From positions 1-35,143 of the forward strand of contig NZ_JAMBOL010000034.1 in NCBI RefSeq assembly GCF_023715605.1: DNA of 35,143 bases, in the 5' to 3' direction. How positions within the stretch are numbered: position 1 is the first letter of the stretch; every line of letters starts with the position of its first letter. The position numbers and the translations under genes are program-made. The notes beneath the pieces are model-generated. The model was not told the origin of the DNA and did no database searches. It saw nothing but the letters and a program-made list of their open reading frames with translations. Source of the DNA: Halalkalibacter oceani. GTDB lineage: Bacteria; Bacillota; Bacilli; Bacillales; Bacillaceae_D. Positions 3,793-25,972 of the stretch are shown here, piece after piece.

Positions 3793-4986
3793 TTACTTTT
3801 TCACGCCGAACTGTTCCCAGCTGATTGTAAAAGACGGCATACCAGCTGCATATGGAGCAATTTCATATTCGCTGAAATATATTGTCCCCCCTTGATCGGA
3901 TACATAAAACTGTTTTGTATCCGGGTCAATCCCATCAAAATCAAAAACATCATTAAATTCAAGCTGAAAGCCTGCATCCGTCACGCCTGCAGACACGGTT
4001 TCGTTAATAATCGCCAAATAGTCTGTACCTTCAGGGAACAGATCCTTTAATGCTACCAATTCTCCGCTTGCAGGAGTAAATGTATAAGCGGTTTGCCAGC
4101 TCCCACCATGCGCGCCTCCTGTATAGTGATAGCCCTCAAAGACAATGCTCAAGTAATCGGCATCATTCTGTTCAATCCGGTAGCTCTCACCAAACGCGTA
4201 ACGCTCAGCGATCATTTGATCTTCTTCGGCTTCCGCACGCGCAAACAGCTCTTCTCTCGCCTCCACTGACCGACCTGCATGCTCGGCGAGCGTCTGATTG
4301 ACTCGACCTTGACTTGCTTGATCAAGACCGGTCACGCGAGGAAAGTAGACATTTTCAGCGGCCCGCTGTGGAAGAACAGCGACCTCCTCACGAAAGGATT
4401 CCTCTTTTGCCCGCGCCAAGAAAACAGCGAATTCAGCCCGGGTCACAGGTTCTCCTGGACGAAAAGTCAAATCGTGATAACCGGTTGTCAGGCGATTTTC
4501 CGCGAGCTCACTGATGCTCTCATACGCCCAATGCCCGGATGCCACATCGCGAAAATCAACAGGCTGGCTGCTCATTAGCTGCGAAGAACGTGAAAGAATT
4601 GTAGCCATCTCAGCCCGCGTTAACGTATCATTCGGGCGAAACTCATTTCCATCAGCAAAAAATCCTGCTCCCACCGCTGCGGCAATGCCGGAATAAGCAT
4701 AGTTCGTCTCCGCTACATCCGTGAACGAGACAGGCTCCGGCTGTTCCATATCCAGACCATGCAGTCGCGCCAGCGTTACCGCGGCCTGCGCTCTTGTCAC
4801 ATCATCGCCAATCCCGAAAGCTCCATCCTGATACCCTAGCATCACGCCCTGCTCAGCCAAAAAGTGAATCTCCTCCACTCCCCAAAACCCATTTGAAACA
4901 TCCGAAAATGCGACCTCAGCTTGTACGGGGCTGGCCACAACCAATAAAGCTGATATCCCGACCGCTGCCATGATCCTTCTCTTCAT
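3793..4986 (-). CDS. Secreted SLH-domain protein with DUF4163/DUF3298 (RsiV/PdaC-like) C-terminus
   Basis: 397-residue exported protein. A signal peptide (KRRIMAAV... to about Ala23, VQA|EVA) is followed by three S-layer homology repeats at about 27-70, 88-130 and 144-190, each with the FxDV...A..GxF.G...F.P...TRAE pattern; SLH repeats bind pyruvylated secondary wall polymer. The remainder (about 205-395) looks like the DUF4163/DUF3298 region of RsiV and PdaC, including the GGAHGGS turn and the ELVALKDLF strand, here with the Y-x-Y-TGGAHG motif. RsiV uses this fold to bind lysozyme; no polysaccharide deacetylase or sigma-factor-binding part is present. The protein is very acidic. The ATG follows AAGGG at six bases. 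Confidence 0.8.
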   Translation of the reverse strand: MKRRIMAAVGISALLVVASPVQAEVAFSDVSNGFWGVEEIHFLAEQGVMLGYQDGAFGIGDDVTRAQAAVTLARLHGLDMEQPEPVSFTDVAETNYAYSGIAAAVGAGFFADGNEFRPNDTLTRAEMATILSRSSQLMSSQPVDFRDVASGHWAYESISELAENRLTTGYHDLTFRPGEPVTRAEFAVFLARAKEESFREEVAVLPQRAAENVYFPRVTGLDQASQGRVNQTLAEHAGRSVEAREELFARAEAEEDQMIAERYAFGESYRIEQNDADYLSIVFEGYHYTGGAHGGSWQTAYTFTPASGELVALKDLFPEGTDYLAIINETVSAGVTDAGFQLEFNDVFDFDGIDPDTKQFYVSDQGGTIYFSEYEIAPYAAGMPSFTISWEQFGVKK

Positions 4987-7780: not shown

Positions 7781-9443
<1,663 letters not shown>

Positions 9444-10598
9444 TCAGATCACATATGAATTTTTAATTAACTTGTTGATGACTTGAATAGTATCAGTTGC
9501 AGTCAACTTTCCTCCAAGATATTCATGAATATACTCTCCTGCTTTTTCCTGAATGAATGTATATCCATCATATCTTGGACGAATATAGGACAGGTCCAAT
9601 GTTTTTAACGTATTTTTAAAGAAACCATGAACTTTGTCATTAATTGCTTTATTAGTCCAAGCTGTTCGATGTGCCGGCTGTCCCTCATGTTCTACATATA
9701 TCCCTCTTTGGCATTCACCTGAGGCTACATACATTGCATACTTAACGGCAATGTCAGTATGCCTGCAATGAGAAGACACACCTAAACCTACCCCCCCAAT
9801 AATAGAACCTTTTGGTTGTGATTGAATGGACGGGATATCAGTAAAATGAATCACATGACTTTTGTCATTATTATAGGAATAGTTCACATACCCATAAATC
9901 AATGGAACATAAATAATTTCATCAGCTGTTTTCATAAATTCCAGCATCTCAATTGGGTCTGAATGTAAAGAAAGAGGATGTACATAAGGAATAATTTCAT
10001 TCAAAGAATGCAACGCTTGCTTTCCGATTTCAATATCTATGCCGCGCTGTTGATCCCAAAAAACATTTCCTCCAATATTTGCACACAAAGTCATAAAGCT
10101 AATAAACGAATGAGTGGAATTTAACGGGATACCTATTTTGACATCATTCGGTACTTGCTTAGCCATCATTACTACGTCTTTCCAACTCTCTGGTATACTC
10201 ATTTGGTGTTTTTCTATTAAGTCCTGTCTATACGCAGCTACTTGAGCGGCTGTGTCGACTGGCAATGCCCAAAGCCTTTCCTTCCACAGATAACTCTCAT
10301 AGCTTGGACCTACACTGTTCGCTTTTAAATCTTCCACATATTCTTTTGGTAAATATTCACTTAACGAAAGCAGAGAGTCTGTATTTACTGCTCGGCCTAT
10401 ACATGGATGATCAAGTAAGATTAAATCAAATTCTTTAGCTAAGGCCTCAATCGGATAATCTTCAAAATCTTTTAAAGAGCGTGTACTCCAATGCGCCTCC
10501 ACTTCCGGGTGATTCTTTTGAAATGCCTTAAAGGTGGCTTTCATCGGTTCAATACCACGTGGGTGGTTCCACGTCATAATTTTCAGTTCAATTGTCAT
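9444..10598 (-). CDS. ABC-type solute-binding-like protein without signal peptide
   Basis: 384 residues with the fold signature of extracellular sugar-type (cluster B, MalE-like) binding proteins: a first strand ELKIMTWNHPRG, then FKAFQKNHPEVEAHW, FDLILLDHP, a substrate-loop-like LWALPVDTAAQVAAYRQDL, and IGGVGLGVSSH in the C-terminal lobe. The oddity is the N-terminus. The protein starts directly with the first strand of the mature domain and has no signal peptide, lipobox or membrane helix, and there is no in-frame extension that would supply one; an upstream GTG adds only three residues. It should therefore stay in the cytoplasm. No ABC permease or ATPase gene is nearby; the neighbours are TRAP genes, 37 bases upstream. 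A cytoplasmic sensor, a substrate chaperone or an enzyme are possible roles. The function is unknown to me. Confidence 0.72.
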   Translation of the reverse strand: MTIELKIMTWNHPRGIEPMKATFKAFQKNHPEVEAHWSTRSLKDFEDYPIEALAKEFDLILLDHPCIGRAVNTDSLLSLSEYLPKEYVEDLKANSVGPSYESYLWKERLWALPVDTAAQVAAYRQDLIEKHQMSIPESWKDVVMMAKQVPNDVKIGIPLNSTHSFISFMTLCANIGGNVFWDQQRGIDIEIGKQALHSLNEIIPYVHPLSLHSDPIEMLEFMKTADEIIYVPLIYGYVNYSYNNDKSHVIHFTDIPSIQSQPKGSIIGGVGLGVSSHCRHTDIAVKYAMYVASGECQRGIYVEHEGQPAHRTAWTNKAINDKVHGFFKNTLKTLDLSYIRPRYDGYTFIQEKAGEYIHEYLGGKLTATDTIQVINKLIKNSYVI

Positions 10599-10635
10599 CG
10601 AGTTCACTCCAAGTCCATTTTCAACTAGATTTCTA

Positions 10636-11913
10636 TTAGTTTCTCATTGTATCTGGTAAAAACGTTACAATTTGAGGGATAAGCACTAAAATGATCGTAA
10701 TCAAAATCATAACGCCAACAAGCGGCCATACTTTCCAAAATACTTGCGACATTTTTGTTTTTCCAATACTTGATGCAATAAAAAGCAAGTTTCCTACAGG
10801 CGGGGTCACTCCACCAATAACGAGGGTAAGGATAACGATGACACCAAAATGAACAGGGTCAAATCCAAACGCACTTTGGATACCGATCAGTACCGGTATT
10901 AAAATAATGAGTGCGGCCGAGGCTTCCAGGAAAAGACCAATAATTAGCAAAATTAACATAACTAAAAAATAGACAAAAATTGGTTGATCTGTAATTGAGG
11001 TAATGAGTCCAACTGCCTTTTGAGGAAATTGTTCAAAAGCTAATAACCAGCTAAATGCGGCAGCGGCGGCCATTATCATGAGTGAAATTGTTGATAATAC
11101 AGCAGCTCCCAGAAAAACATCAGGTAGCTTTTTAAAGTTTATTGTACGCTGAATTACACCTAGGATGAACGCGTACGCTACGGCGACAACTCCCGCTTCA
11201 GTCGGTGAGAAAATCCCAAACCGAATCCCGCCAATAATAATAACTGGTAATGCTAAAGCCAAAATCGCCTGCTTAAACGCTTCCCAAACATCATGTAACG
11301 TTGCACGTGTTTCACTAGAAACAATGTTATGCTTTCGAGCGTAAAAATAACTGTAAATCATTAAACCTAACCCAAGCAGTAAACCCGGGATAATCCCAGC
11401 CATAAATAAAGCCCCAATGGACGTACCTGTTAACGAGCCATAAATAATCATCATGATACTGGGAGGAATAATCGGCCCGATAATTGAAGCAGTTGCTGTT
11501 AAAGAGACAGCAAATCCTGGGTCATAGTTCTGTTTTTTCATTGCCGGAATAAGCAAAGATCCGACAGCTGAAGTATCGGCAGCTGCTGAGCCTGAAATTC
11601 CCGAAAATAACACACTAGTCATAACGGTAACCTGGGCAAACCCGCCCCGGATATGCCCCACCAATGTAACAGCGAAGCGAATGATTTTACCGGTTAATCC
11701 TGTATGTGTCATTAATTCACCTGCCAACATAAACAGAGGAATAGCTACTAATGAAAAAGAATCCAAAGTTGTGAAAAAGCGCTGGGTAACAACAAGAAAC
11801 GGGATACCATCTTGAGTAGATAAGCCTGCAAATGTTGCTAATCCAATCGCAAATGCTACCGGTGTTCCTATTAAAATAAGAACTGCAAACACTATGAATA
11901 ATACTGCTAACAT
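10636..11913 (-). CDS. dctM: TRAP transporter large permease subunit (DctM)
   Basis: 425-residue membrane protein of about 12 helices that forms the Na+-coupled translocation channel of a TRAP carboxylate transporter. The family signature is intact: GELMTHTGLTGKI at about 65-77, and the SGISGSAAADTSAVGS loop at 104-119 followed by LIPAM. TRAP systems import C4-dicarboxylates, keto acids, aromatic acids, sugar acids and similar anions. The start follows AAAGGAG at seven bases and lies 14 bases after dctQ, so the two are co-translated. Confidence 0.93.
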   Translation of the reverse strand: MLAVLFIVFAVLILIGTPVAFAIGLATFAGLSTQDGIPFLVVTQRFFTTLDSFSLVAIPLFMLAGELMTHTGLTGKIIRFAVTLVGHIRGGFAQVTVMTSVLFSGISGSAAADTSAVGSLLIPAMKKQNYDPGFAVSLTATASIIGPIIPPSIMMIIYGSLTGTSIGALFMAGIIPGLLLGLGLMIYSYFYARKHNIVSSETRATLHDVWEAFKQAILALALPVIIIGGIRFGIFSPTEAGVVAVAYAFILGVIQRTINFKKLPDVFLGAAVLSTISLMIMAAAAAFSWLLAFEQFPQKAVGLITSITDQPIFVYFLVMLILLIIGLFLEASAALIILIPVLIGIQSAFGFDPVHFGVIVILTLVIGGVTPPVGNLLFIASSIGKTKMSQVFWKVWPLVGVMILITIILVLIPQIVTFLPDTMRN

Positions 11914-11927
11914 CGCTATTCTCCTTT

Positions 11928-12440
11928 CTACACGTTATCTGTATCCTCGATTCCCCTCTGCTCCTCAATTCCATAACGAATCGTCCGCCATATTGAACTT
12001 ATGATATAAATGAACATTATGATAGAAGAGAGCGGTAAAACAATATAAACAAATGCCATCGGAATGTTCATTGAAGGGGAAGGGGTCATTCCAGCGCTTT
12101 TCAATAAATTAATTCCATTGAAAAAGAATAGAATTAAAAAGATACTAATTAAAACATCATTTAGTAAAACAAAGAACGTTTGAAGCTTAAGGGGAAGTTT
12201 TGAAATAATTAAATCAAAACCTAAGTGAGCTTTCCGTTTAATCGCAACCCCCGACCCTAGTAAAATCATCCAAATGAATGTATAGCGAATAAATTCATCA
12301 GACCAGACAAATGAAAAGTTAAAAACGTAGCGACCAACTACATTAACAAACATGATTACTGAGAAGGCCACAAAAAGAAGGACGACCATCCATTCAACTG
12401 ACCGATCAAAGAGATGTTCTATTTTTTTCAAATATTCCAC
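11928..12440 (-). CDS. dctQ: TRAP transporter small permease subunit (DctQ)
   Basis: 170 residues with four hydrophobic helices and the DctQ pattern (NVVGRYVFNFSFVWSDEFIRYTFIWMILLGSGVAIKR at about 34-70, not quoted in full), in which the WxDE and R-x-x-F residues are typical. It pairs with DctM and docks the binding protein. The GTG at 12440 sits very close to AAGGA; a TTG three codons on (12431) may be the actual start. A hairpin separates it from dctP. Confidence 0.88.
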   Translation of the reverse strand: MEYLKKIEHLFDRSVEWMVVLLFVAFSVIMFVNVVGRYVFNFSFVWSDEFIRYTFIWMILLGSGVAIKRKAHLGFDLIISKLPLKLQTFFVLLNDVLISIFLILFFFNGINLLKSAGMTPSPSMNIPMAFVYIVLPLSSIIMFIYIISSIWRTIRYGIEEQRGIEDTDNV

Positions 12441-12515: not shown

Positions 12516-13562
12516 CTATTTCATTGCCTGAATTTGTTCAATGATATCCTGAGCTCCTTCAATTTCATTTGAGATGGAGTCCCAAATTGGCTGCACTTTG
12601 TCTATAAACGCTTGCCTGTCTTCCACTTCATTTAGAATTAAGCCTTCCTCAACCATAGCTTCAACTCCATCAATGTTAGCCTGCTCAGTCTCCGTTCTTT
12701 CAATTTCAATCGCTTCCCTCATTGCTTCTTTAATAATTGTTTGATATTCCTCAGGAATGCTGTTCCATTTATCTTGATTAATTACTGTTGTTGCAGAGGC
12801 TTGAATATGATTTGTCGCCAGCAAGTATTTAGTTTCTTCATAAAATTTTTGTAAATGTAAATCTGAAGGAGCGCTTTCCAGGCCAGAGATAATACCTGTT
12901 TCCAGACCTGTATAAACTTCTCCCCAAGGCATTGGAGTAGCATTACCGTTCAATAGTTTAATTGTTTCAATGTAAACCGTTGACTCCGGAGCTCTAATTT
13001 TCAAGCCATTAAAGTCTGGTCCTGTCACTTCTTCAGTCGTTATAAAATACCGGAAACCACCAAAGCTCCACCCAAGGGAAACTAATCCTGTTTCTTCTAA
13101 AAGCTTTTGATCTATTTCTTCTGTAATTTCACTGTCCAGTACATTTCCAAGATGCTCGTAATCCTCAAAGATAAAAGGAAGAGAATAGATTCCATATTCA
13201 GGAACATAGGAAGCTAAAGCTGCATCATCTGCTTTGGTCATATCGACTGTTCCAGAAATCACACCCTCAAGAAGATCACGTGCATTTCCTAGCTGACTAT
13301 TTGGAAAGACCTCCACTTGAACCGCTCCATTTGTTTTTTCATTAACGAGGTTTGCAAAATTTGTATACTGTTTACCTTGAGGGGCCTCTTCTGTTAACCA
13401 GTGACCTAATCTTAAGACAATCGGTTCTTGGTCCCCCCCGTTTCCTTCTTGAGAAGCCGTATCCGAGTCATCATTATTAGTTGTTGTTTCTCCGCCTCCG
13501 CAGGCTGCTAACAATCCGATTAGACAACCAAGTAATAGTAGACTTAACCAGCTTTTTTTCAT
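12516..13562 (-). CDS. dctP: TRAP transporter substrate-binding lipoprotein (DctP)
   Basis: 348-residue extracytoplasmic binding protein, anchored as a lipoprotein: a positively charged start, hydrophobic core and lipobox LLAAC with Cys21. A Gly/Asp/Asn-rich linker (22-46) leads to the DctP domain. The conserved Arg that grips the ligand carboxylate is Arg190 in GLKIRAP, and MPWGEVYTGLETGIISGLES follows as in the family. This says the ligand is an organic acid, not a neutral sugar. It is the first transporter gene in the operon. The start follows GAGGAGAGG. Confidence 0.93.
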   Translation of the reverse strand: MKKSWLSLLLLGCLIGLLAACGGGETTTNNDDSDTASQEGNGGDQEPIVLRLGHWLTEEAPQGKQYTNFANLVNEKTNGAVQVEVFPNSQLGNARDLLEGVISGTVDMTKADDAALASYVPEYGIYSLPFIFEDYEHLGNVLDSEITEEIDQKLLEETGLVSLGWSFGGFRYFITTEEVTGPDFNGLKIRAPESTVYIETIKLLNGNATPMPWGEVYTGLETGIISGLESAPSDLHLQKFYEETKYLLATNHIQASATTVINQDKWNSIPEEYQTIIKEAMREAIEIERTETEQANIDGVEAMVEEGLILNEVEDRQAFIDKVQPIWDSISNEIEGAQDIIEQIQAMK

Positions 13563-13627: not shown

Positions 13628-14656
13628 TCATAAAGACTGTGGATGAATCATAATTTTGCCAACATGGCTTGCACGAGAACTAGCAAGGGTAAAAGCATCT
13701 TGGATATGATCAAGATCAAATCGATTTGTTACTAATGCCTCCACTTTTATCCGTTGTTGTTGAATTAACTTAATCGCAGTTTCAAAATCTTCTTTTCTAT
13801 ACATTTGCGTACCAAATAATCTTCTTTCCTCTCTTTGGAGTAAACGCATAGGTATTGTTGGATTTTTTCCGAAAATAGCAGATATGACAATTTCTCCTCC
13901 GTTTTTAGTGATTGTTAAAGCTTGTTGTAAGGTCATTTCTAATCCTGCACAATCAACCGCTCCATCCAGTTTTTGAGAGTTATTTTTTTCAAAAGCTATC
14001 TTAAGTAAATTTTCATGAACAGGATCAATAACTATATCTGCACCAAGTGTTTCTGCTAAGACCCTCCTTGTTTCGTTTGGATCAGAAACAAAGATACGCT
14101 TGGCCCCAAATGCCTTTAATACCTGGAAGGTTAATAATCCAATAGGCCCTGCTCCTAAAACAGCAAATGTCTGACCCTTTATTTTTGAAAAATGAGACAC
14201 AGCATGCACAGCAACGGCAACACTTTCAACCATAGCTCCTTCTGTCGCAGTAAATTGTTCAGGTATTTTAACTAAATTATCTTCAGGAACAACAATAGAT
14301 TCTGCAAAAGCCCCGGGAACGTGACCTCCTATTACTTGTAAATCCTCGCATAGATTAAACTTTCCCTGAAGGCAGTGTTCACAACGGCCACAACCGATTG
14401 CCGGTATTCCGGCGACATAGTCCCCCACTTTAAATCCCTTCACCTCGGTACCACATTGAATAACTCTACCTGAAAATTCATGCCCCATTACAACTGGTGG
14501 ACCAATAACTGGATGATGTCCTTCAAAAATGTGCAAATCCGACCCGCATAATCCACATACCTCTAACTGAACGAGTATATCTTTCTCCGAAAGTTTTCGC
14601 TCGATAACTTCTTGTAGTTCTATCGTTTTTACTCCTGTCAGAATCGCTTGTTTCAT
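13628..14656 (-). CDS. Zinc-dependent medium-chain alcohol/polyol dehydrogenase
   Basis: 342-residue MDR enzyme of the sorbitol/threonine dehydrogenase group. Catalytic zinc ligands are Cys37, His59 and Glu60 (CGLCGSD, GHE), with Glu144 as the likely further ligand. Four structural zinc cysteines are Cys89, Cys92, Cys95 and Cys103. The cofactor motif GAGPIG (168-173) with Asp192 at the end of the second strand points to NAD+. It oxidises a secondary alcohol to a ketone. Its place between CoA-transferase 1 and dctP in one operon suggests it acts on the imported compound or a product. The start follows AAGGGAG. Confidence 0.88.
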   Translation of the reverse strand: MKQAILTGVKTIELQEVIERKLSEKDILVQLEVCGLCGSDLHIFEGHHPVIGPPVVMGHEFSGRVIQCGTEVKGFKVGDYVAGIPAIGCGRCEHCLQGKFNLCEDLQVIGGHVPGAFAESIVVPEDNLVKIPEQFTATEGAMVESVAVAVHAVSHFSKIKGQTFAVLGAGPIGLLTFQVLKAFGAKRIFVSDPNETRRVLAETLGADIVIDPVHENLLKIAFEKNNSQKLDGAVDCAGLEMTLQQALTITKNGGEIVISAIFGKNPTIPMRLLQREERRLFGTQMYRKEDFETAIKLIQQQRIKVEALVTNRFDLDHIQDAFTLASSRASHVGKIMIHPQSL

Positions 14657-14697: not shown

Positions 14698-15918
14698 CTA
14701 ATTACTACGGGAAGAATGATCCGTTTCGTTGTATACGACACCAGACTGTTTTAATTGATCAATTTGCTCACCCGAATAACCTGCCATCTTTAAAATTTCA
14801 TCGCTGTGTTCCCCAACCAATGGTGGATAGTAACGTATCGAACCTGGGGATTCAGAAAATTGATACGGAATTCCTAACATTCTTAGCTTCCCTTCAGTTG
14901 GGTGATCCATCTCGACAATCATGTTATTGTGTTTTACTTGTGGGTCGTTGATAAGGTCGTCATAGTCATACACCGGACCTGCCCAATAATTGTGCTTATC
15001 AAGAATTTCAATCCATTCTTTGGTTGTTTTTTGTGGCATTATACTAGCTACGATGCGATAAATTTCATCACGGTATTCCATCCCATCATTCCATTCAGTA
15101 AACGACCGAAGCTTATCATCATCCAACGCCTCTCCTAAAACATCGATTGGACCAATTGAAACAACAATATAACTGTCTTTTGTTTTATAGATACCATATG
15201 GGGCAGTTAACAGCGTGTGAGCGAGTGGCTCATCTGTTCTTTCCGGCTTTACCCCTCCCGTCATGTAAACGCTAAGCTCTTGAACCTGAAGATCCATAAC
15301 TGCATTTAACATATTTACCTCTACCTTTTGTCCTTTTCCATTAGTTTCGCGGTAGAATAATGCTGCAAGTATGCTTTGGACAGTCATATGAGAGGCTGTA
15401 GCGTCTGCAATAAATAATGCGTTGGGATGTGGAGGATCACCTTTTTTCCCCGTATTCCAAAGTGAGCCGCTGTATCCTTGAAGAACTAGGTCTTGACCTG
15501 GCCTCTTGGCATAGGGACCCGTTTCTCCATAACCAGAGATACTGCAATAAATAATTTTTTTATTGATTTTTTTTGCCGCTTCATAATCAATGCCTAACCG
15601 TTCCACTACCCCTGGGCGGAAATTATGAAGCATCACGTCTGCCTTTTTAATTAAAGCTTGAACAATTTTTAAACCTTCGTCGCTCTTTAAATTGACTGAT
15701 AAACTTCTTTTATTACGATTGAATGAAATAAATGAAGAATTTAATTTATTGGCCCAAGCGTTTGCTGCTGGTCTTGTACGGTGCCATTCACCGGAGCCTG
15801 TAGGTTCAATCTTAATAACCTCGGCTCCTAGATCTCCTAACTTTTGCGCAGCGAATGGGCCAGACATAGCTAGTGAAAAATCTAAAATCATAACTCCTTC
15901 AAGCGGTCCCTTCCCCAT
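14698..15918 (-). CDS. Class III CoA-transferase 1 (CaiB/BaiF family)
   Basis: Moves CoA from one carboxylic acid to another. 406 residues with family landmarks: GDLGAEVIKIEP near the N-terminus, NRNKRSLSVNL, NFRPGVVERLG, GYGETGPY, and the nucleophile Asp172 in FIAD-A (formate CoA-transferase Asp169 equivalent). ATG at 15918 is chosen because GGAGG stands eight bases upstream; a TTG frame from 15942 lacks one. The protein is clearly a sister of CoA-transferase 2 (19196-20413), with the aspartate at the same residue number, so the pair probably arose by duplication and may handle donor/acceptor steps of one pathway. Substrates are unknown. Confidence 0.9.
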   Translation of the reverse strand: MGKGPLEGVMILDFSLAMSGPFAAQKLGDLGAEVIKIEPTGSGEWHRTRPAANAWANKLNSSFISFNRNKRSLSVNLKSDEGLKIVQALIKKADVMLHNFRPGVVERLGIDYEAAKKINKKIIYCSISGYGETGPYAKRPGQDLVLQGYSGSLWNTGKKGDPPHPNALFIADATASHMTVQSILAALFYRETNGKGQKVEVNMLNAVMDLQVQELSVYMTGGVKPERTDEPLAHTLLTAPYGIYKTKDSYIVVSIGPIDVLGEALDDDKLRSFTEWNDGMEYRDEIYRIVASIMPQKTTKEWIEILDKHNYWAGPVYDYDDLINDPQVKHNNMIVEMDHPTEGKLRMLGIPYQFSESPGSIRYYPPLVGEHSDEILKMAGYSGEQIDQLKQSGVVYNETDHSSRSN

Positions 15919-15947
15919 TTCTTCTACCTCCAATGATTTCAACTGTT

Positions 15948-16724
15948 TTATTCTTTCAATGGATTTAATCTAGGATCTCCGGCTAAAATCCCCCCGTCCA
16001 CGCCTATAATTTGTCCTGTTATGAATTCTGACTCTTTTGAAAGTAAAAAGATGATGGTATTTGCTACGTCTGTTGTCGAGCCAAACCGGCCCAACGGTGT
16101 ACGGTTTATGATAGTGTCCTTATATGAAGCGTTTTCAAATGTCTGTTTCGTTAAAGGTGTTTCAATATAACCAGGGCTAACCTGATTAACTCGAATATGA
16201 TATTCCGCCCACTCCACCGAAAGCGCTTTCGTTAATTGGTTTATCCCCCCCTTTGCAGCAGCATAGGCCGCAACATTTGGAACTCCATAATGAGAAATCA
16301 TTGAACCTATATTTACAATTCTCCCAGCGCGATGCTCTTTCATTATTTCCGCTACTTCCTGCGACATATAAAATGTACCATTCAAGTTAACATCAAGAAC
16401 CTGTTTCCACTCTTTCACTGTGAATGATAAAGCAGCCTTTCGAATATTAACTCCAGCGCAATTAACAAGCATGTGAATGCTTCCATATTTATCTTTAATA
16501 CTCGTTATTGTTTTTTTTATTTGCTCAGGTTCACCAATATCGGTTTGAAAAAAATCGAGTAAATGCCTGCTGTTTGAGTTTTCCATTAAAAATTTGTTTG
16601 CTTTACTCCGACTTCGACCGATAATGATGCAAATTGCTCCTTCTTTGATTAACTTGCTTGCGACAGCCGCTCCGATTCCGGAATACCCGCCTGTTACAAC
16701 AGCTACCTCATTTTTAAAATTCAA
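15948..16724 (-). CDS. Short-chain dehydrogenase/reductase
   Basis: 258-residue classical SDR: TGGYSGIG cofactor loop at 11-18, NCAG at 88-91, catalytic Ser141, Tyr154 and Lys158, and SPGYIETP at 183-190. It probably oxidises the hydroxyacyl-CoA made by the neighbouring hydratases, which would fill the place of a missing 3-hydroxyacyl-CoA dehydrogenase; this is inference from position. It starts with TTG at 16724, supported by AAAGGAGGG seven bases upstream. Gaps to its neighbours are about 30 bases, so it belongs to the operon. Confidence 0.9.
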   Translation of the reverse strand: MNFKNEVAVVTGGYSGIGAAVASKLIKEGAICIIIGRSRSKANKFLMENSNSRHLLDFFQTDIGEPEQIKKTITSIKDKYGSIHMLVNCAGVNIRKAALSFTVKEWKQVLDVNLNGTFYMSQEVAEIMKEHRAGRIVNIGSMISHYGVPNVAAYAAAKGGINQLTKALSVEWAEYHIRVNQVSPGYIETPLTKQTFENASYKDTIINRTPLGRFGSTTDVANTIIFLLSKESEFITGQIIGVDGGILAGDPRLNPLKE

Positions 16725-16754: not shown

Positions 16755-17522
16755 CTATCTTCCTTTGAAAATTGGCTTTCTTTTTTCTTTAAACGCTGCA
16801 ATACCCTCGTTTCTATCTTCTGTATAAAAACAAATTGTTTGCATGTCACGCTCATACATAATCCCTTGCTCAAGCGGGATACTTAATGCCATTCTGCAGC
16901 CATGCTTCGCTGTTTGCAGCGCAATTGGAGAATAACTCGCGATTTGATGAGCGTAGTTATATGTGAATGTTTCAAGCTCGTTATCTGATACGAAAGCTTC
17001 AATCAAACCAATTTGATTAGCTTCATCAGCATCTATAATATCTCCTGATAAGATTAACTTCATTGCTTTACCATAACCAATTAAATGCGTGAGAAGTTGA
17101 GTGATCCCACCGCCGCCAATCCAGCCCAGCTTGACTTCGACTGCCCCAAACTTAGCCGACTTTCCAGCAAAACGAATATCCGCACAAAGAGCCAATTCTA
17201 ATCCCCCACCCACTGCAAAGCCATTCACCATAGCAATTAAAGGCTTTCTTAACTGCCGCACTACATCACAATATTCTAGCCGGTTTCTAAACTCCCAATT
17301 TGTATGATACTCATCAAGTAATGTTATGTCGCTTCCTGCCGAAAATGCCCTGTCACCTACCCCTGTTAGCACGACAACACGTATATCCTCATCATGATTA
17401 GCTTCATAGACAGCATCTACTAATTGCTTAGTCATTTGCTTAGTCATCGTATTTAGTTTTTCTGGGCGATTAAATGAAATAGTAGCAACATAACCATCTT
17501 TTATAAAATCTACTGACCCCAT
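16755..17522 (-). CDS. Enoyl-CoA hydratase/isomerase (crotonase family)
   Basis: 255 residues, a typical crotonase length. The oxyanion-hole segments are FSAGSDI (about 60-66) and GFAVGGGLEL (101-110). Both catalytic glutamates of true hydratases are present: Glu109 and Glu129, 20 apart as Glu144/Glu164 in the rat enzyme. It should add water to, or remove it from, an enoyl-CoA. Other crotonase activities (carnitinyl-CoA dehydratase CaiD, lyases) remain possible, since CoA-transferase partners are in the operon. The start follows AGGAGGG. Only 16 bases separate it from maoC. Confidence 0.9.
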   Translation of the reverse strand: MGSVDFIKDGYVATISFNRPEKLNTMTKQMTKQLVDAVYEANHDEDIRVVVLTGVGDRAFSAGSDITLLDEYHTNWEFRNRLEYCDVVRQLRKPLIAMVNGFAVGGGLELALCADIRFAGKSAKFGAVEVKLGWIGGGGITQLLTHLIGYGKAMKLILSGDIIDADEANQIGLIEAFVSDNELETFTYNYAHQIASYSPIALQTAKHGCRMALSIPLEQGIMYERDMQTICFYTEDRNEGIAAFKEKRKPIFKGR

Positions 17523-17538: not shown

Positions 17539-17988
17539 TTACGAAACGTTTCGTTCTATCATTTGAAGATCATGAACGATAACAGAAAGCATATCGTCCT
17601 GGTTCTTTACTTGATATTCAAATTTAATTACTCCAAAATTCTCATTTAACGACCTTTTTTCCAATACGGTTGCTGTCATCGTTACCGTATCCCCTGGATA
17701 TACGGGAGCTAAAAAGCGAATTTTATCATAACCATAATGGCCAATTTTAAGTTTTCTTGGTACAAGATCATTCGTGACGAACCCATCTATTACACCCAAG
17801 ATTAATGCTCCAGGCACTACAATTTTTTTAAAAGGATGACTTTTACAATACTCTGCATCAACATGTGCGGGATGAGTGGCATCTGTGGCACCGATAAACA
17901 TTCGAATATCAGCATCAGTCAATGTCCTGCCAGAAGTGTTTATAATTTCTCCTACCTCATACTCTTCCCAATATTTTTCAAGACCCAT
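17539..17988 (-). CDS. MaoC-like hotdog-fold hydratase
   Basis: 149-residue single hotdog protein of the MaoC/R-specific enoyl-CoA hydratase family. The N-terminal YEVGE...SGRTLTDADI and later VVPGALILGVIDG and YGYDKIRFLAPVYPGDTVT are characteristic. The active-site segment reads GATDATHPAHVD. The usual Asp-x4-His pair is altered: Asp36 lies one residue too early for His42, and Ala37 takes the usual Asp place, although His39 and His42 remain. Start 17988 is set by AGAGGTGAT seven bases upstream; reading back to 18138 adds a basic, non-conserved tail through the control region. Its last codons contain the ACGAAACGTTTCGT palindrome. Confidence 0.85.
   Translation of the reverse strand: MGLEKYWEEYEVGEIINTSGRTLTDADIRMFIGATDATHPAHVDAEYCKSHPFKKIVVPGALILGVIDGFVTNDLVPRKLKIGHYGYDKIRFLAPVYPGDTVTMTATVLEKRSLNENFGVIKFEYQVKNQDDMLSVIVHDLQMIERNVS
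17541..17554. promoter_or_regulatory. LacI-type operator candidate ACGAAACGTTTCGT
   Basis: Perfect 14-bp palindrome with the central CG step typical of LacI-family operators, lying over the last codons and stop of maoC, upstream of ech. Confidence 0.45.
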
Positions 17989-18025
17989 ATCATCACCTCT
18001 TTTAGACTCTTCTCGTTCCCGACTG

Positions 18026-18041
18026 TAAAAAACGTTTTTTA
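18026..18041. promoter_or_regulatory. LacI-type operator candidate in the maoC leader
   Basis: Perfect 16-bp palindrome TAAAAAACGTTTTTTA, 37 bases upstream of the maoC start codon. The centre is 74 bases from that of the second site at 18103-18112, i.e. about seven helical turns, which would allow looping. Confidence 0.5.
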
Positions 18042-18102
18042 ATTTAAAGAAAATCAAGTTAAAAAAACCTTTATTCCGCATATAGAGCTTTGATTTGAAA
18101 CA

Positions 18103-18112
18103 AAAACGTTTT
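18103..18112. promoter_or_regulatory. Second LacI-type operator candidate, AAAACGTTTT
   Basis: Ten-bp palindrome in the lacI-maoC gap, sharing the AAAACGTTTT core of the 18026 site. A partial cre-like sequence (TGAAAGCGCTTATT on the minus strand, 18123-18136) lies just upstream, between it and the lacI stop. Confidence 0.4.
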
Positions 18113-18143
18113 CTCATCCGGTAAATAAGCGCTTTCATTTTTG

Positions 18144-19175
18144 CTATTTAATCTTTCTAACTGATTTTCGTACTCTGATTTCAGAATTTAATGTAATTTG
18201 ACGTTGTTTTATGTCAATACCACGAAGGATATCAATAATCATATTTGCCCCTAATCTCCCTACTTCTGCAAATGGATTAGAAATGGTTGTTAGTGGCACT
18301 TTTAATAAATGCAAATTGGGTATATTATCACACCCTACTATTGAAATATCATTCGGAATTAAAATTCCCTCTTGTTCCAGCCCTTCGATTGCTCCTAACG
18401 CCATCAAATCATTCGCTGCAAAAACAGCAGTTGGGGCATGCGCATATTCTCGTAGTAACCGCCTTACACCAATAAGACCTGATTCTTGATAGTAGTCACC
18501 GCTAATAACCAGCGTCTCATCATAAGCGACACCAGCTTCTAATAATGCTTGTTTATAACCTTCTAATCTTTCCTCAGCCATACTAATGCCTGGCATTTTC
18601 CCTATAAATCCAATTTTTTCATGGCCTTTCTCTAACAGATAACGTGTAGCGATGTATCCACAATTTTTATTGTTTAAAGAAACGGAATATGTTCGCTCAT
18701 TAACAGCACTTCTAATAAGGACAATAACTGGAATTTCGATCTTCTCTATCAGTTGTTCAAGCTCCCTGTCCTTCCTCCGTGTCCCAATATAAATCATGGC
18801 ATCCACAATTCGACTTTGAGCAATTTTAGGAATCACACTTTCTTCATCTTCCAGACTGACAATATTAAGAAGGGCATGATACCCGTTTTTATTTAAGGTT
18901 GCTGTAATTGACTTGATGCTATCGAAAAAAATCGGATTTGAAAAAATATTAAAAGAAGATGGGGCAGATAAAACAATACTTACATTTTTAGTCATTTTTG
19001 TTACCAAACCTTGAGCTACTGTATTAGGCACATAATTTAATTTTGTAGCTATTTCAATTACCCGTTTACGAGTTTTTATACTTACCCCATTCTTTCCATT
19101 TAAAGCATTTGAAGCCGTTGATACAGCTACACCAGCAAGTTTGGCAACATCTTTTATTGTAGCCATTCTCATCAA
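18144..19175 (-). CDS. LacI-family transcriptional regulator
   Basis: 343-residue regulator. The helix-turn-helix is at the extreme N-terminus (ATIKDVAKLAGVAVSTASNALNG), followed by the hinge helix region and a periplasmic-binding-like effector domain (about 65-340; MIYIGTRR, GFIGKMPGISMAEERLEGYKQ and AANDLMALG are standard). The start may be TTG at 19175 or ATG at 19172 or 19166; none has a strong ribosome site, perhaps because translation is coupled to caiB2, which ends 20 bases upstream. It presumably represses the maoC operon and possibly itself through the AACGTT palindromes on both sides. Confidence 0.92.
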   Translation of the reverse strand: MMRMATIKDVAKLAGVAVSTASNALNGKNGVSIKTRKRVIEIATKLNYVPNTVAQGLVTKMTKNVSIVLSAPSSFNIFSNPIFFDSIKSITATLNKNGYHALLNIVSLEDEESVIPKIAQSRIVDAMIYIGTRRKDRELEQLIEKIEIPVIVLIRSAVNERTYSVSLNNKNCGYIATRYLLEKGHEKIGFIGKMPGISMAEERLEGYKQALLEAGVAYDETLVISGDYYQESGLIGVRRLLREYAHAPTAVFAANDLMALGAIEGLEQEGILIPNDISIVGCDNIPNLHLLKVPLTTISNPFAEVGRLGANMIIDILRGIDIKQRQITLNSEIRVRKSVRKIK

Positions 19176-19195: not shown

Positions 19196-20413
19196 TTATA
19201 TTTTAAACGTTTCGGGCTGCACATTTTGAATAACATTCTTTTGCTGGAGTGATAAAATCTGTTGATCAGTTAAACCTAATTCTTTTAATATTTCCGTATT
19301 ATGTTCGCCTAGTTCTGGCGGTGGCATCCGGTAGGAAATAGGCGTGTCCGATAAAGTGATTGGGTTGGCGACGAATTTCAGCTTTCCATACTTTGGATGA
19401 GTAAATGACTGAATCGTACGATTATGTTCAATTTGTGGATCTTGTGCCACTTCTTCATATGTCTGAACTGGGCCGCACCAAACATCATAAGAATCAAGTT
19501 GTTCGATCCATTCCACCGTTGTTTTTGTCAGCAAAACTTCAGCAACAATTCTAAAAATTTCCTCCTTATACGCTTGCCCGTCCTCCCACTTACTAAATTT
19601 TTTTAAATCGTCACACTCTAATGCCTTAGACAATTTGTCATATGGTGTCATAGCTAAAGCAATATAGCTGTCTTTCGTTTTATGAATACCGTATGGACTA
19701 TTAATAAATGGATGGGCCATTAACTCTTCACTGCGCTCTGGCTTCTTTCCCACGTTTAAATAGGTAGTAAATTCTTGAATTTGTACATCCATAATAGAAC
19801 TTAGTAGATTCACTTCAATTTTTTGGCCTTTCCCCGTCTTTTCTCTTGCATAAAGAGCAGATACAATTCCAGCCAATGCCAGATTCCCTGTAGCTGCATC
19901 GACTACAAATGTTCCAAGCGGAATAGGTGGATCACTTTTTCGTCCTGAGTTCCATACGACTCCTGATAAAGACTGGACGATTAAATCTTGCCCAGGCCTT
20001 TTTTCGTAAGGACCACTTTCTCCAAACCCAGTTATCGAACAATATATCAGTCTCGGATTTATCTGGTTCATTGCATTATAATCAGTCCCCAATTTTTCAT
20101 GGACAGTCGGTCGAAAATTACTAACAAGGATATCAGCAGTCCTCACTAATTCGCTAAAAATTTCTTTTCCTTCTTTTTCTTTCAAGTTCAAGGTTAAGCT
20201 TCTTTTGTTTCGATTTAACGCAATTAATGAAGTGTTAAATTCTCCTACCCATGCATTTCCGATCGGACGTGTTCGTGTCCACTCTCCCAGTCCAGGCGGC
20301 TCAACTTTTATTATATCTGCTCCTAAATCACCCAATTTTTGAGTTGCAGTTGGGCCTGCCATATGATGGCAAATTTCAATTACTCGAACGCCGTCCAAAG
20401 CTCCCTTACTCAC
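19196..20413 (-). CDS. Class III CoA-transferase 2 (CaiB/BaiF family)
   Basis: 405 residues, a close sister of CoA-transferase 1: KLGDLGADIIKVEPPG, GEWTRTRP, NRNKRSLTLNL, SNFRPTVHEKLG, ITGFGESGPYEKRPGQDL, and the nucleophile Asp172 in FVVDAATG. It starts with GTG at 20413, behind AAAGGAGGGG. It is the first gene after the iclR terminator and has its own promoter, so it is controlled separately from transferase 1 but reads on into lacI. Having two such enzymes in one locus suggests two different CoA acceptors or a pair of alternate donors. Confidence 0.9.
   Translation of the reverse strand: MSKGALDGVRVIEICHHMAGPTATQKLGDLGADIIKVEPPGLGEWTRTRPIGNAWVGEFNTSLIALNRNKRSLTLNLKEKEGKEIFSELVRTADILVSNFRPTVHEKLGTDYNAMNQINPRLIYCSITGFGESGPYEKRPGQDLIVQSLSGVVWNSGRKSDPPIPLGTFVVDAATGNLALAGIVSALYAREKTGKGQKIEVNLLSSIMDVQIQEFTTYLNVGKKPERSEELMAHPFINSPYGIHKTKDSYIALAMTPYDKLSKALECDDLKKFSKWEDGQAYKEEIFRIVAEVLLTKTTVEWIEQLDSYDVWCGPVQTYEEVAQDPQIEHNRTIQSFTHPKYGKLKFVANPITLSDTPISYRMPPPELGEHNTEILKELGLTDQQILSLQQKNVIQNVQPETFKI
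19205..19212. promoter_or_regulatory. AAACGTTT near the end of caiB2, upstream of lacI
   Basis: Short palindrome in the last codons of caiB2, 30 bases upstream of lacI. It shares the core of the sites at 18026 and 17541 and could serve autoregulation. It is short, so the support is weak. Confidence 0.3.
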
Positions 20414-23517: not shown

Positions 23518-25650
23518 TCAATCAACAATTGTTAATGACAACGCCCGCATTGCCGCTTCTGTCACAGGATCAAGCTCTGCTTGCTCATCGCTTTGATCCG
23601 GGGCCAGTTCATCGGCAATCATGTAAGCCGGCACGGTTAAAAGCGACCATAAAATTGCCGCCTCTTCCTCATTTGTTAATGGTTTGGTTGCGAGATAATC
23701 CGCTCCGCTGTCCCCGACAACGACTTCGGGACCGTGATAGCCAAAGGCGACCATCATTTTAATAGCTGGGAGCGCCCATTCACTCACTTCCCCCGTTACG
23801 ACAATATCAGTAAAAAGCTGATCCGGAAATTGCTCCCGGTAGCTTCTCCATAGCATCACGGCCGCTTCTTGCCGTGTAATTGCCTCATCAGGTCTGAAAT
23901 TTCCTTGCCCATCCCCGTTGATTAACCCTAATTCAAAGGCCATTTGAATATAGGCGGCGCTTGGATGTCCAGCAATGTCGTTGAAAGCGAGCTGGTCTGT
24001 TTCACTGCCCGGCAGGTTGCTGATGACAAGAATGTTTTCGATGAACGAGGCTCTCGTCACCGGGCGTTGCGGGTCAAAGGTTCGAACCGCGTCATTTGGA
24101 TAATAGGCTAATGACTGGAGCGGGAAAATATAGTCGGCATACGGATGATCTTCAGAAATATCGCTGAATCCAACTGGCTGTTCCCCTTTTTGCGCATAGC
24201 CTAGCGGATTCAAGTTCGGTTCACTCAAATAGCTGACATCTCCAGCCTCATTTCCTTCAAAGCCAATCAATTGATTGGTTAATGAATCGACGAATAAGCG
24301 CTCCTCGACTTGAATAAGCGGTCTTGGACCGAGGAAGCTGTCGGAAATCGTTAATGCCCCATCCTCTCCCAGAGCGACTGTCGAGATCAAGATATTCAGG
24401 CGCAAGTCCTGATAAACGCCGGTAAACGCTTCAAGCTCATCTTGCGGCAGCGGCTCAAAGTCATCGAAGTCGGCCGGCTCCACATATTGCGGGAAAAATG
24501 TACTCATGAATTGGCTATAAAACAACTCCCGTAATGCGCCGTTTTGATTGTAGGTCAAAAAGACACCGGTCTCCTCATCCGGAAGCATGAACAAATAGGA
24601 GCTAAAGCCAGTCAGATCCCCTGCTTTCGTAATGACGCGGCTGCTGCTGCCGGCTCCAGGAAGCTGCATCGGTGCTTCAAATCCGTATGTCGTATTCGGG
24701 ATCAGCGGGTGAATGGCAGATTGATAGGTTTCCATCAGATTGATAGACTTTTCCGATAAAAATTCACCTTCGTCTGTCTTTCCGCCTTCAAGAAAACCAA
24801 TCATAAACTTCCCAATATCCTCTGCAGTTGAAAGCATTCCGCCGTGTGGCATGATCGTCGGCGTCACGGTGTAAAGCGGGAGTTCTCCACCGAGCTGGTC
24901 ATAGCCTGTTGCCAGCTGCCCGATCATCCGGTCACTTAATTCATAGCTGCTGTTTTCCATCCCAAGCGGTTCAAACAGATGCGTTTGCATATACCGCTCA
25001 AATGGCTCTCCACTTACCTTTTCGACAAGTAGTCCTGCCAGGAGGGAGGCGAAATTATCATACATATACGAAGTGCCAGGCTCCCTGACAACAGAAGGCA
25101 TATGCTCGTGAACATAGTCTTCCATTTCTACGATTCTTGTAAAATCCTCGTGTAAATCACTTGCCTGTGGATCACGAATTTCAAATCCTGTCGTATGAGT
25201 CAGCAAATGCGCCACAGTGACAGGGGTGGCATATGGATTCGCAAACTGTAGTTCCGGTAAATATGTACGAATATCCTCTTGAAGGTCAATTTTCCCCTGC
25301 TCGACAAGCTGCATCACCGCAACGGCCGTAAATGATTTCGAAACAGACGCGACTCTAAAGACCGTCCCTTCCGGATCAACAGCTGTTTCCGTCGCTTGAT
25401 CAGCATAGCCGTATCCTTTCTGTCCAATCACCTCGCCGTCTTTCACAACAACGACCGAGGCGCCAATATAATGGGGCTGAACTTGTTCAGCGGCAAAAAA
25501 TTGCTCAAGAAATTCATTCAAGCTTTCCTCTGATAATTCGCTTCCTTCCGTTGATGTTTGCGCCGCTGCACCTGGTGCTACGCTAAGCGACAGCAAAGCC
25601 AAAACGAGCAGCACCCTCAGGTAAACTGCAGCAGTGTAGCTTCTTTTCAT
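23518..25650 (-). CDS. SLH-anchored serine hydrolase, class C beta-lactamase/PBP type
   Basis: 710-residue secreted protein. A signal peptide (KRSYTAAVYLRVLLVLALLS..., cleavage near APGAAA) precedes a beta-lactamase/AmpC-EstB type hydrolase domain (about 40-390) with catalytic Ser102-x-x-Lys105 (SVSK), Tyr197-x-Asn199 (YDN) and HGG at 269-271 in place of KTG. A middle domain (about 395-510) follows, then three SLH-like repeats towards the C-terminus (about 515-680; FSDISEDHP, FNDIAGHPSAAYIQMAFELGLINGDGQGNF, TRQEAAVMLW). It may be a D-aminopeptidase, peptidoglycan endopeptidase, esterase or beta-lactamase-like enzyme held on the wall. Start 25650 is set by AAGGAGG at seven bases; ATG two codons earlier is too close. 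The protein is strongly acidic. Confidence 0.85.
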   Translation of the reverse strand: MKRSYTAAVYLRVLLVLALLSLSVAPGAAAQTSTEGSELSEESLNEFLEQFFAAEQVQPHYIGASVVVVKDGEVIGQKGYGYADQATETAVDPEGTVFRVASVSKSFTAVAVMQLVEQGKIDLQEDIRTYLPELQFANPYATPVTVAHLLTHTTGFEIRDPQASDLHEDFTRIVEMEDYVHEHMPSVVREPGTSYMYDNFASLLAGLLVEKVSGEPFERYMQTHLFEPLGMENSSYELSDRMIGQLATGYDQLGGELPLYTVTPTIMPHGGMLSTAEDIGKFMIGFLEGGKTDEGEFLSEKSINLMETYQSAIHPLIPNTTYGFEAPMQLPGAGSSSRVITKAGDLTGFSSYLFMLPDEETGVFLTYNQNGALRELFYSQFMSTFFPQYVEPADFDDFEPLPQDELEAFTGVYQDLRLNILISTVALGEDGALTISDSFLGPRPLIQVEERLFVDSLTNQLIGFEGNEAGDVSYLSEPNLNPLGYAQKGEQPVGFSDISEDHPYADYIFPLQSLAYYPNDAVRTFDPQRPVTRASFIENILVISNLPGSETDQLAFNDIAGHPSAAYIQMAFELGLINGDGQGNFRPDEAITRQEAAVMLWRSYREQFPDQLFTDIVVTGEVSEWALPAIKMMVAFGYHGPEVVVGDSGADYLATKPLTNEEEAAILWSLLTVPAYMIADELAPDQSDEQAELDPVTEAAMRALSLTIVD

Positions 25651-25972
25651 CGTCATTCCTCCTTATTCCATCATATACCAGAATATACGAACGAGATAAC
25701 GAAAGGTTGCAGGTTAAAAGGTTTTTTTTCATCTTTTTCCTAGCGCCTAAGCTCTGTACGGAACCACCACTAGAGTTAAAGCCCGTTGTGTGTCGGATTC
25801 TCACAACGGGCTTATGGTGTATGATATGCTGACAGGTTTTGTCTGCCCCTCCCTTCTTTGAAGCATGAGTGGAGTCAATACCTTCCTCAATTCTTCCTTT
25901 CCTTACTGCTGAGAATGTTTATCCTTTCTTATAACCCGGTGGCGGACTCTCAGTTCAAGAGATCTGAGCGTG
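25651..25972. other. 322-base gap, terminator only
   Basis: It contains the stem-loop at 25779-25813. The rest (25814-25972), between that stem and the stop codon of the next gene, shows nothing recognisable. Confidence 0.4.
25779..25813 (-). terminator. 12-bp perfect stem-loop
   Basis: AAGCCCGTTGTG (25779-25790) and CACAACGGGCTT (25802-25813) enclose 11 bases. On the minus strand TTTAAC follows. It likely ends transcription from the 25973-26686 gene before the serine-hydrolase gene. Confidence 0.7.

Follow-up and report, generated by a model that had tools for sequence, protein, structure and literature searches.

The region considered here, referred to below as the window, is a stretch of 35,143 nucleotides from Halalkalibacter oceani (contig NZ_JAMBOL010000034.1, positions 1 to 35,143). 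Its minus strand carries an operon of eleven genes, running from 20413 down to 9444 in the order CaiB, LacI, MaoC, enoyl-CoA hydratase, SDR, CaiB, zinc dehydrogenase, DctP, DctQ, DctM and SBP1, the last being the name used in this work for the gene product under study. The features of this segment, with the basis of each assignment in brackets, are:

9292..9326, minus strand: hairpin and T-run, a probable terminator 3' of SBP1 (folding against shuffled sequences)
9444..10598, minus strand: SBP1, an SBP_bac_1-family protein of 384 amino acids, predicted to be cytosolic (ORF translation, Pfam, profile)
10607..10610, minus strand: ribosome-binding site GGAG, 8 nt before the ATG of SBP1 (sequence reading)
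10636..11913, minus strand: DctM, TRAP large permease (family profiles)
11928..12440, minus strand: DctQ, TRAP small permease (Pfam)
12516..13562, minus strand: DctP, TRAP solute-binding lipoprotein with a lipobox, LAAC, recognised by eye (Pfam PF03480)
13628..14656, minus strand: zinc alcohol dehydrogenase; the best NCBIfam match, threonine 3-dehydrogenase and related enzymes, is below the cut-off (family profiles)
14698..15942, minus strand: class III CoA-transferase (CaiB/BaiF), first copy (family profiles, solved relatives)
15948..16724, minus strand: short-chain dehydrogenase (family profiles)
16755..17522, minus strand: enoyl-CoA hydratase/isomerase family protein (family profiles)
17539..18138, minus strand: MaoC-like hydratase, given as the longest frame, with a likely start inside it (Pfam)
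18144..19175, minus strand: LacI-type regulator (Pfam)
19196..20413, minus strand: class III CoA-transferase (CaiB/BaiF), second copy (family profiles)

SBP1 is the last gene of the operon and is separated from dctM by 37 bases. The terminator hairpin that follows it (9326-9292) has a z-score of -5.6, with none of 200 shuffled sequences being equally stable; a simple terminator scan did not list it. Just past this hairpin lies a cytochrome P450 gene (window 7781-9019, minus strand), followed by genes for a GntR/FCD regulator and an aldehyde dehydrogenase, and S-layer-homology domains are found in two other window proteins (3793-4986 and 23518-25656, both minus strand), one of which also has a beta-lactamase-family domain. 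Within the operon, the second CaiB copy retains the Asp of the 'D-x-x-T-G' stretch common to the solved relatives. As the earlier note on this DNA had pointed out, the operon already possesses a binding lipoprotein of its own in DctP, and Pfam detected no ABC permease or ATPase among 26 window proteins, which comprise nearly all of the long non-overlapping open reading frames.

The GGAG precedes the ATG at 10598, upstream of which the frame remains open for only 15 residues, ETNRNLVENGLGVNS, before it is closed by a TGA at 10646-10644, 16 codons upstream of the ATG; so short an extension leaves no possibility of a signal peptide there. The protein begins at the first motif of the family, with no hydrophobic stretch at the N-terminus. 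Signal peptides were judged throughout from the length of the open frame, hydropathy and inspection by eye. That such inspection does detect signals is seen from the other SBP_bac_1 proteins of the same genome: a signal or lipobox was recognised in all eight examined (L004-L011), these being eight of ten genome-wide matches, of which the remaining two are a paralogue of SBP1 and one further match. Thus, the absence of a signal peptide, a lipobox and a 5' extension claimed in the earlier note is borne out, and a missed start or missed signal peptide could be ruled out by the in-frame stop together with the evidence from relatives presented below.

In terms of family membership, the only Pfam match of SBP1 is to SBP_bac_1 (PF01547, MalE-like), over residues 18-152 and with a modest score of 33.4 bits (cut-off 26); a PF01547 search of the whole genome listed the paralogue and not SBP1 itself. 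NCBIfam gave only sub-threshold matches, to MalE and GanS, and the TRAP-type DctP family PF03480 does not match SBP1, its match being instead to the product of 12516-13562. An alignment of 52 family members, SBP1 included (hereafter A3), was used as well. Every one of the 52 members matched SBP_bac_1, and a profile of A3 compared with solved structures matched sugar-binding proteins over both lobes, the best being the trehalose/maltose-binding protein TMBP (PDB: 1eu8; E 1.1e-19, profile positions 53-377, with positions 1-52 lying outside the alignment). The two-lobed solute-binding-protein fold is therefore supported by profile comparison, in agreement with the earlier proposal that SBP1 has the mature-domain fold of MalE-like proteins. 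ABC sugar-binding proteins such as TMBP, SmoF (PDB: 7nbz) and MalE belong to the same PF01547 family and align with it over both lobes, but SBP1 differs from them in having no signal peptide and, in the window, no permease or ATPase; furthermore, the GGW stretch reads GGVG in SBP1 and GGTG in the consensus of its family.

Sequence conservation within A3 is strict. Here 37 of 384 positions are invariant, 21 of them polar or aromatic, and the invariant polar residues include R14, D63, H64, D115, R340 and R342. In the profile alignment with 1eu8, D63 stands opposite an Asp and R340 opposite an Arg, which we take to be the sugar contacts D70 and R364 of TMBP. A further sugar contact of TMBP, D123, presumably corresponds to position 117, which is Ala throughout A3, and D115 presumably stands at a Tyr contact of 1eu8. 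Conservation of this strictness across loci devoted to different glycans suggests that the family may bind one common ligand, perhaps a late intermediate shared by the pathways concerned.

To what extent these features hold beyond the window was seen from a wider survey. A scan of genome contigs (tblastn, E <= 1e-3) confirmed at least 574 loci with relatives of SBP1, of which the best 80 were retained; judged by the titles of the records, these come from several phyla. The main survey comprised 90 SBP1 ORFs in 88 loci, 80 loci having been obtained by similarity and five more from annotated plasmid records. SBP1 is accordingly not an oddity of the window, a notion ruled out by its occurrence in many other genomes. 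Where annotations were checked, members of the family are labelled 'extracellular solute-binding protein' or similar. Nevertheless, no signal peptide was seen in any of the 90 ORFs by open frame and hydropathy: the median number of open codons before the first motif (TWxHxRG) is 17, with fewer than 16 in 41 ORFs and fewer than 20 in 58. Among the longer frames there is a single strongly hydrophobic upstream stretch (L087, Kyte-Doolittle value 2.65), which precedes the Met of the usual N-terminus. Another 36 loci, each about 4.1 kb long, were drawn as a second set from sampled Bacteroidota and Pseudomonadota genomes, leaving out L007, a true secreted protein; here the highest hydropathy values, 1.97 (L127) and 1.89 (L124), belong to stretches that by eye are not signal peptides. 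Judged from the reading frames, the absence of an export signal is strongly supported for the SBP1 family.

A near-constant neighbour of SBP1 is CaiB. A CaiB gene lies on the same strand within 6 kb in 87 of the 90 ORFs of the main survey, so that the neighbourhood survey of signal-less homologues proposed earlier as a check confirms the conservation next to CoA-transferases, which holds far beyond the window. The two genes are direct neighbours in 68 of 83 cases, under one choice of non-overlapping ORFs, and of the 83 nearest pairs, 48 show a possible start of one gene overlapping the stop of the other by exactly 4 bp (35 with SBP1 followed by CaiB, 13 in the reverse order); since each start was chosen as the in-frame codon lying nearest to that stop, these are counts of possible starts. 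In the second set, 32 of the 36 loci have CaiB no farther than about 1.5 kb from SBP1. Two of these loci also occur in the first set (L108 = L070, L118 = L084), and 31 of the 34 new ones have CaiB. The four second-set loci without it are L118 and the three UxuA-SBP1 loci L140-L142 (one of which was scanned). When two misses of the UxuA type were extended (L144, L146), CaiB was found about 6 kb away in both. In these two loci SBP1 adjoins the mannonate dehydratase UxuA (scanned in L144), and IclR and ABC-transporter-like genes are also present.

Among the observations that count against SBP1 being a partner of CaiB, three concern the arrangement of genes. The first is a single gene (L084 = L118 = L145) of the Bacteroidota genome G785 (contig C11), whose CaiB pair is 61 kb off and, as read, sits with a second binding protein (SBP2, see below), Gfo/Idh and MaoC. 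The neighbours of this SBP1 are a transporter-like protein with no Pfam match, a rhamnulose-1-phosphate aldolase/dehydrogenase (above the NCBIfam cut-off), a kinase as read, a divergent IclR gene and a gene whose best match, below the cut-off, is L-rhamnose isomerase. The second is L096, in which no partner of SBP1 was recognised within the locus, and the third is that no SBP1-CaiB fusion was found among the ORFs of the main survey.

Whole genomes show the association with CaiB as well. In all 16 sampled Bacteroidota genomes with SBP1 the number of CaiB genes is exactly two (E <= 1e-30), and 30 of these 32 genes lie within 2.6 kb of SBP1, whereas any CaiB at all was found in only 12 of 62 SBP1-negative genomes of the phylum (those among G500-G564, of 280; negative here means no match at the threshold among the candidates scored). 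Fisher's test gives 1.8e-9 for this co-occurrence, or 4.9e-9 without the chosen centre genome, values that ignore kinship and genome completeness and serve only as a guide. The three CaiB genes of Paenibacillus soyae are all inside its SBP1 locus. On pSymB of S. meliloti the CaiB-SBP1 pair is present, with no match to MaoC, SDR or hydratase within 6 kb of SBP1 in a gene table that is incomplete. Correlation of distances over 44 loci was tried as evidence of physical contact and dropped: the values for SBP1 with CaiB (0.89 for the nearer copy, 0.96 for the farther) are no higher than that for SBP1 with Gfo/Idh (0.97), and thus speak for co-inheritance rather than contact.

The phyletic distribution of SBP1 is patchy. 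It was found in 1 of 398 Bacillota genomes, namely that of the window (E <= 1e-40), in 16 of 296 genomes from the phylum to which Pedobacter belongs (Bacteroidota) and in 18 of 398 from that of Rhizobium (Pseudomonadota; E <= 1e-60); each of the three samples was centred on a genome already known to carry the gene, and that genome is included in the count. Within the genus of the window, SBP1 was found in none of 12 further genomes, and among 99 other relatives in a single one (E <= 1e-20), which suggests horizontal acquisition. In the tree SBP1 is monophyletic with a root support of 0.17, and given this value we claim nothing from it. The paralogue in the same genome (37% identity; L099:833-9675, contig C32) heads an operon in the order SBP1, CaiB, CaiB, MaoC, amidohydrolase and Gfo/Idh oxidoreductase; genes for a Peripla_BP_4 binding protein and an ABC ATPase come next, and the whole may represent a sugar route linked to CoA. 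Two SBP1 paralogues also occur within one locus of Ammoniphilus resinae (L035:8048-12600), the second being directly before a CaiB gene.

As for transport, the TRAP-operon setting to which the earlier note drew attention is correct for this locus, where SBP1 follows DctM as the last gene, but does not extend to the family: only 6 of the 88 loci of the main survey have a DctP match no more than 6 kb from SBP1, which rules out SBP1 as a general TRAP accessory protein. The set of the window recurs in a Clostridium locus (L019: DctP, DctQ, DctM, SBP1, CaiB, hydratase, CaiB), and in a locus from Mediterraneibacter (L020) SBP1, CaiB, hydratase and CaiB are accompanied by a DctP farther on. Other loci contain ABC or MFS transporters, or glycosidases, in place of TRAP, and in the relatives that were examined closely the ABC genes, where present, are accompanied by a binding protein of their own. 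The typical order in Bacteroidota is SBP1-CaiB-CaiB-SBP2-Gfo/Idh-MaoC, often beside glycosidases; for example, L066 encodes an alpha-L-rhamnosidase, a GH2 enzyme and a GH130-like protein, and L071 a protein with an agarase-type domain. Alphaproteobacterial plasmid loci, as annotated and with not all genes in each, have an amidohydrolase, IclR, a sugar ABC transporter, a mandelate-racemase-family protein and rhamnose mutarotase. The common thread of the SBP1 loci is sugars or sugar acids together with enzymes of CoA esters.

SBP2, the second binding-protein family of these loci, follows the CaiB pair and comprises 44 ORFs with an RIAVRK-type motif (family start RIAVRKFGPFE), mostly from Bacteroidota (for example L066:13594-14838); a further member, L086:77-1495 on the minus strand, is labelled Chloroflexi. 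Like SBP1, it is of the SBP_bac_1/8 type (one member was scanned), adjoins CaiB and shows no visible signal peptide, 36 of the 44 ORFs having fewer than 20 open codons before the motif; yet it is a separate family. As SBP2 is nearer to secreted ABC binding proteins of alphaproteobacterial loci (about 27% identity) than to SBP1, there is a hint that binding proteins may have been internalised twice.

Several strands, namely 1) the lack of an export signal, 2) membership in SBP_bac_1, 3) co-location and co-occurrence with CaiB and 4) the carbohydrate setting of many loci, form the basis of the best-supported interpretation, in which SBP1 would act as a cytosolic ligand-binding protein serving the CoA-transferase encoded alongside it. 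Its two-lobed cleft would hold a sugar-derived acid, lactone or acyl-CoA intermediate common to these pathways; SBP1 would pass this intermediate to CaiB, or serve as the substrate-recognition subunit of CaiB, and the resulting CoA ester would then be processed by MaoC or enoyl-CoA hydratase. We give this detailed reading not quite an even chance, whereas it is quite probable that SBP1 functions in some connection with the CaiB step. Of the roles proposed in the earlier note, that is, ligand sensing, hand-over of substrate and a new enzyme activity, the pattern of conservation favours one tied to the CoA-transferase. Paired CaiB genes are also seen in two-gene class III CoA-transferases such as benzylsuccinate CoA-transferase (PDB: 9fn0), both subunits of which are matched by the window CaiB. 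Unlike in the proposed SBP1-CaiB arrangement, none of the solved class III relatives among the matches listed is named with a binding-protein partner, and we found no description of a cytosolic solute-binding protein with a CoA-transferase in the open-licence literature.

The main rival, which we regard as unlikely, makes SBP1 an enzyme in its own right, its binding-protein fold turned to catalysis of a reaction next to that of the CoA-transferase, for example the opening of a lactone, an epimerisation or a dehydration. The periplasmic-binding fold does serve in cytosolic metabolism, as in MqnA/MqnD and THI5/NMT1, with MqnA and MqnD being enzymes on another branch of this fold, and the invariant polar residues of A3 exceed what a loosely specific binder would appear to need. 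However, SBP1 matches none of these families, we know of no link between them and CoA-transferases, and no enzyme family of Pfam or NCBIfam matched SBP1 or A3 at E <= 0.001. Moreover, H12, though invariant in A3, is Asp in the wider relatives L134 and L135, and G15 is replaced by Cys in three others (L140-L142), so the loop is not a strict catalytic motif.

Distinctly improbable is a role as a cytosolic sensor that reports a pathway ligand to the regulator of the operon (IclR, LacI or GntR). In 38 loci an IclR gene occurs no more than 9 kb away from SBP1, in several of them divergent and directly adjacent, which would fit such a role, and there are precedents in SgrR and other regulators that carry an SBP-type ligand domain in the cytosol; but SBP1 differs from SgrR in that Pfam found no DNA-binding domain in it. 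The family of the adjacent regulator also varies from locus to locus (LacI, GntR, IclR, LysR, MarR), CaiB being more constant, and such regulators usually have effector domains of their own, as seen for the LacI-type and IclR regulators of the window. Finally, that we are dealing with a normal ABC solute-binding protein which has lost its signal peptide, or whose signal peptide escaped notice, as the family name and the automatic annotation would have it, is scarcely credible in the face of 90 members with no visible signal, most of them with no room for one, of the signals that the same inspection found in all eight other binding proteins of the genome and of the absence of ABC genes among the window proteins scanned; for this gene the in-frame stop ahead of the ATG already contradicts it.

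SBP1 is thus a variant within a known fold family, with an unusual and strongly conserved partner. Its annotation as a transporter binding protein hides a conserved cytosolic module. If SBP1 works with CaiB as we propose, class III CoA-transferases would gain a substrate-binding partner, and the loci would point to a CoA-dependent breakdown of sugars or sugar acids. A broader scenario, tentative and in our view rather doubtful, is that of a previously unrecognised CoA-dependent catabolic route for carbohydrates (sugar acids), in which the class III CoA-transferases would be two-component enzymes of CaiB with SBP1, or with both SBP1 and SBP2, recruiting the carbohydrate-derived substrate, and in which binding proteins of transporters would have been internalised at least twice to take on substrate recognition. 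In the sampled Bacteroidota the two CaiB genes of a genome are nearly always those of the SBP1 operon, so that the link is directly amenable to a genetic test. Taken together, the family suggests the recruitment of a transporter fold into metabolism.
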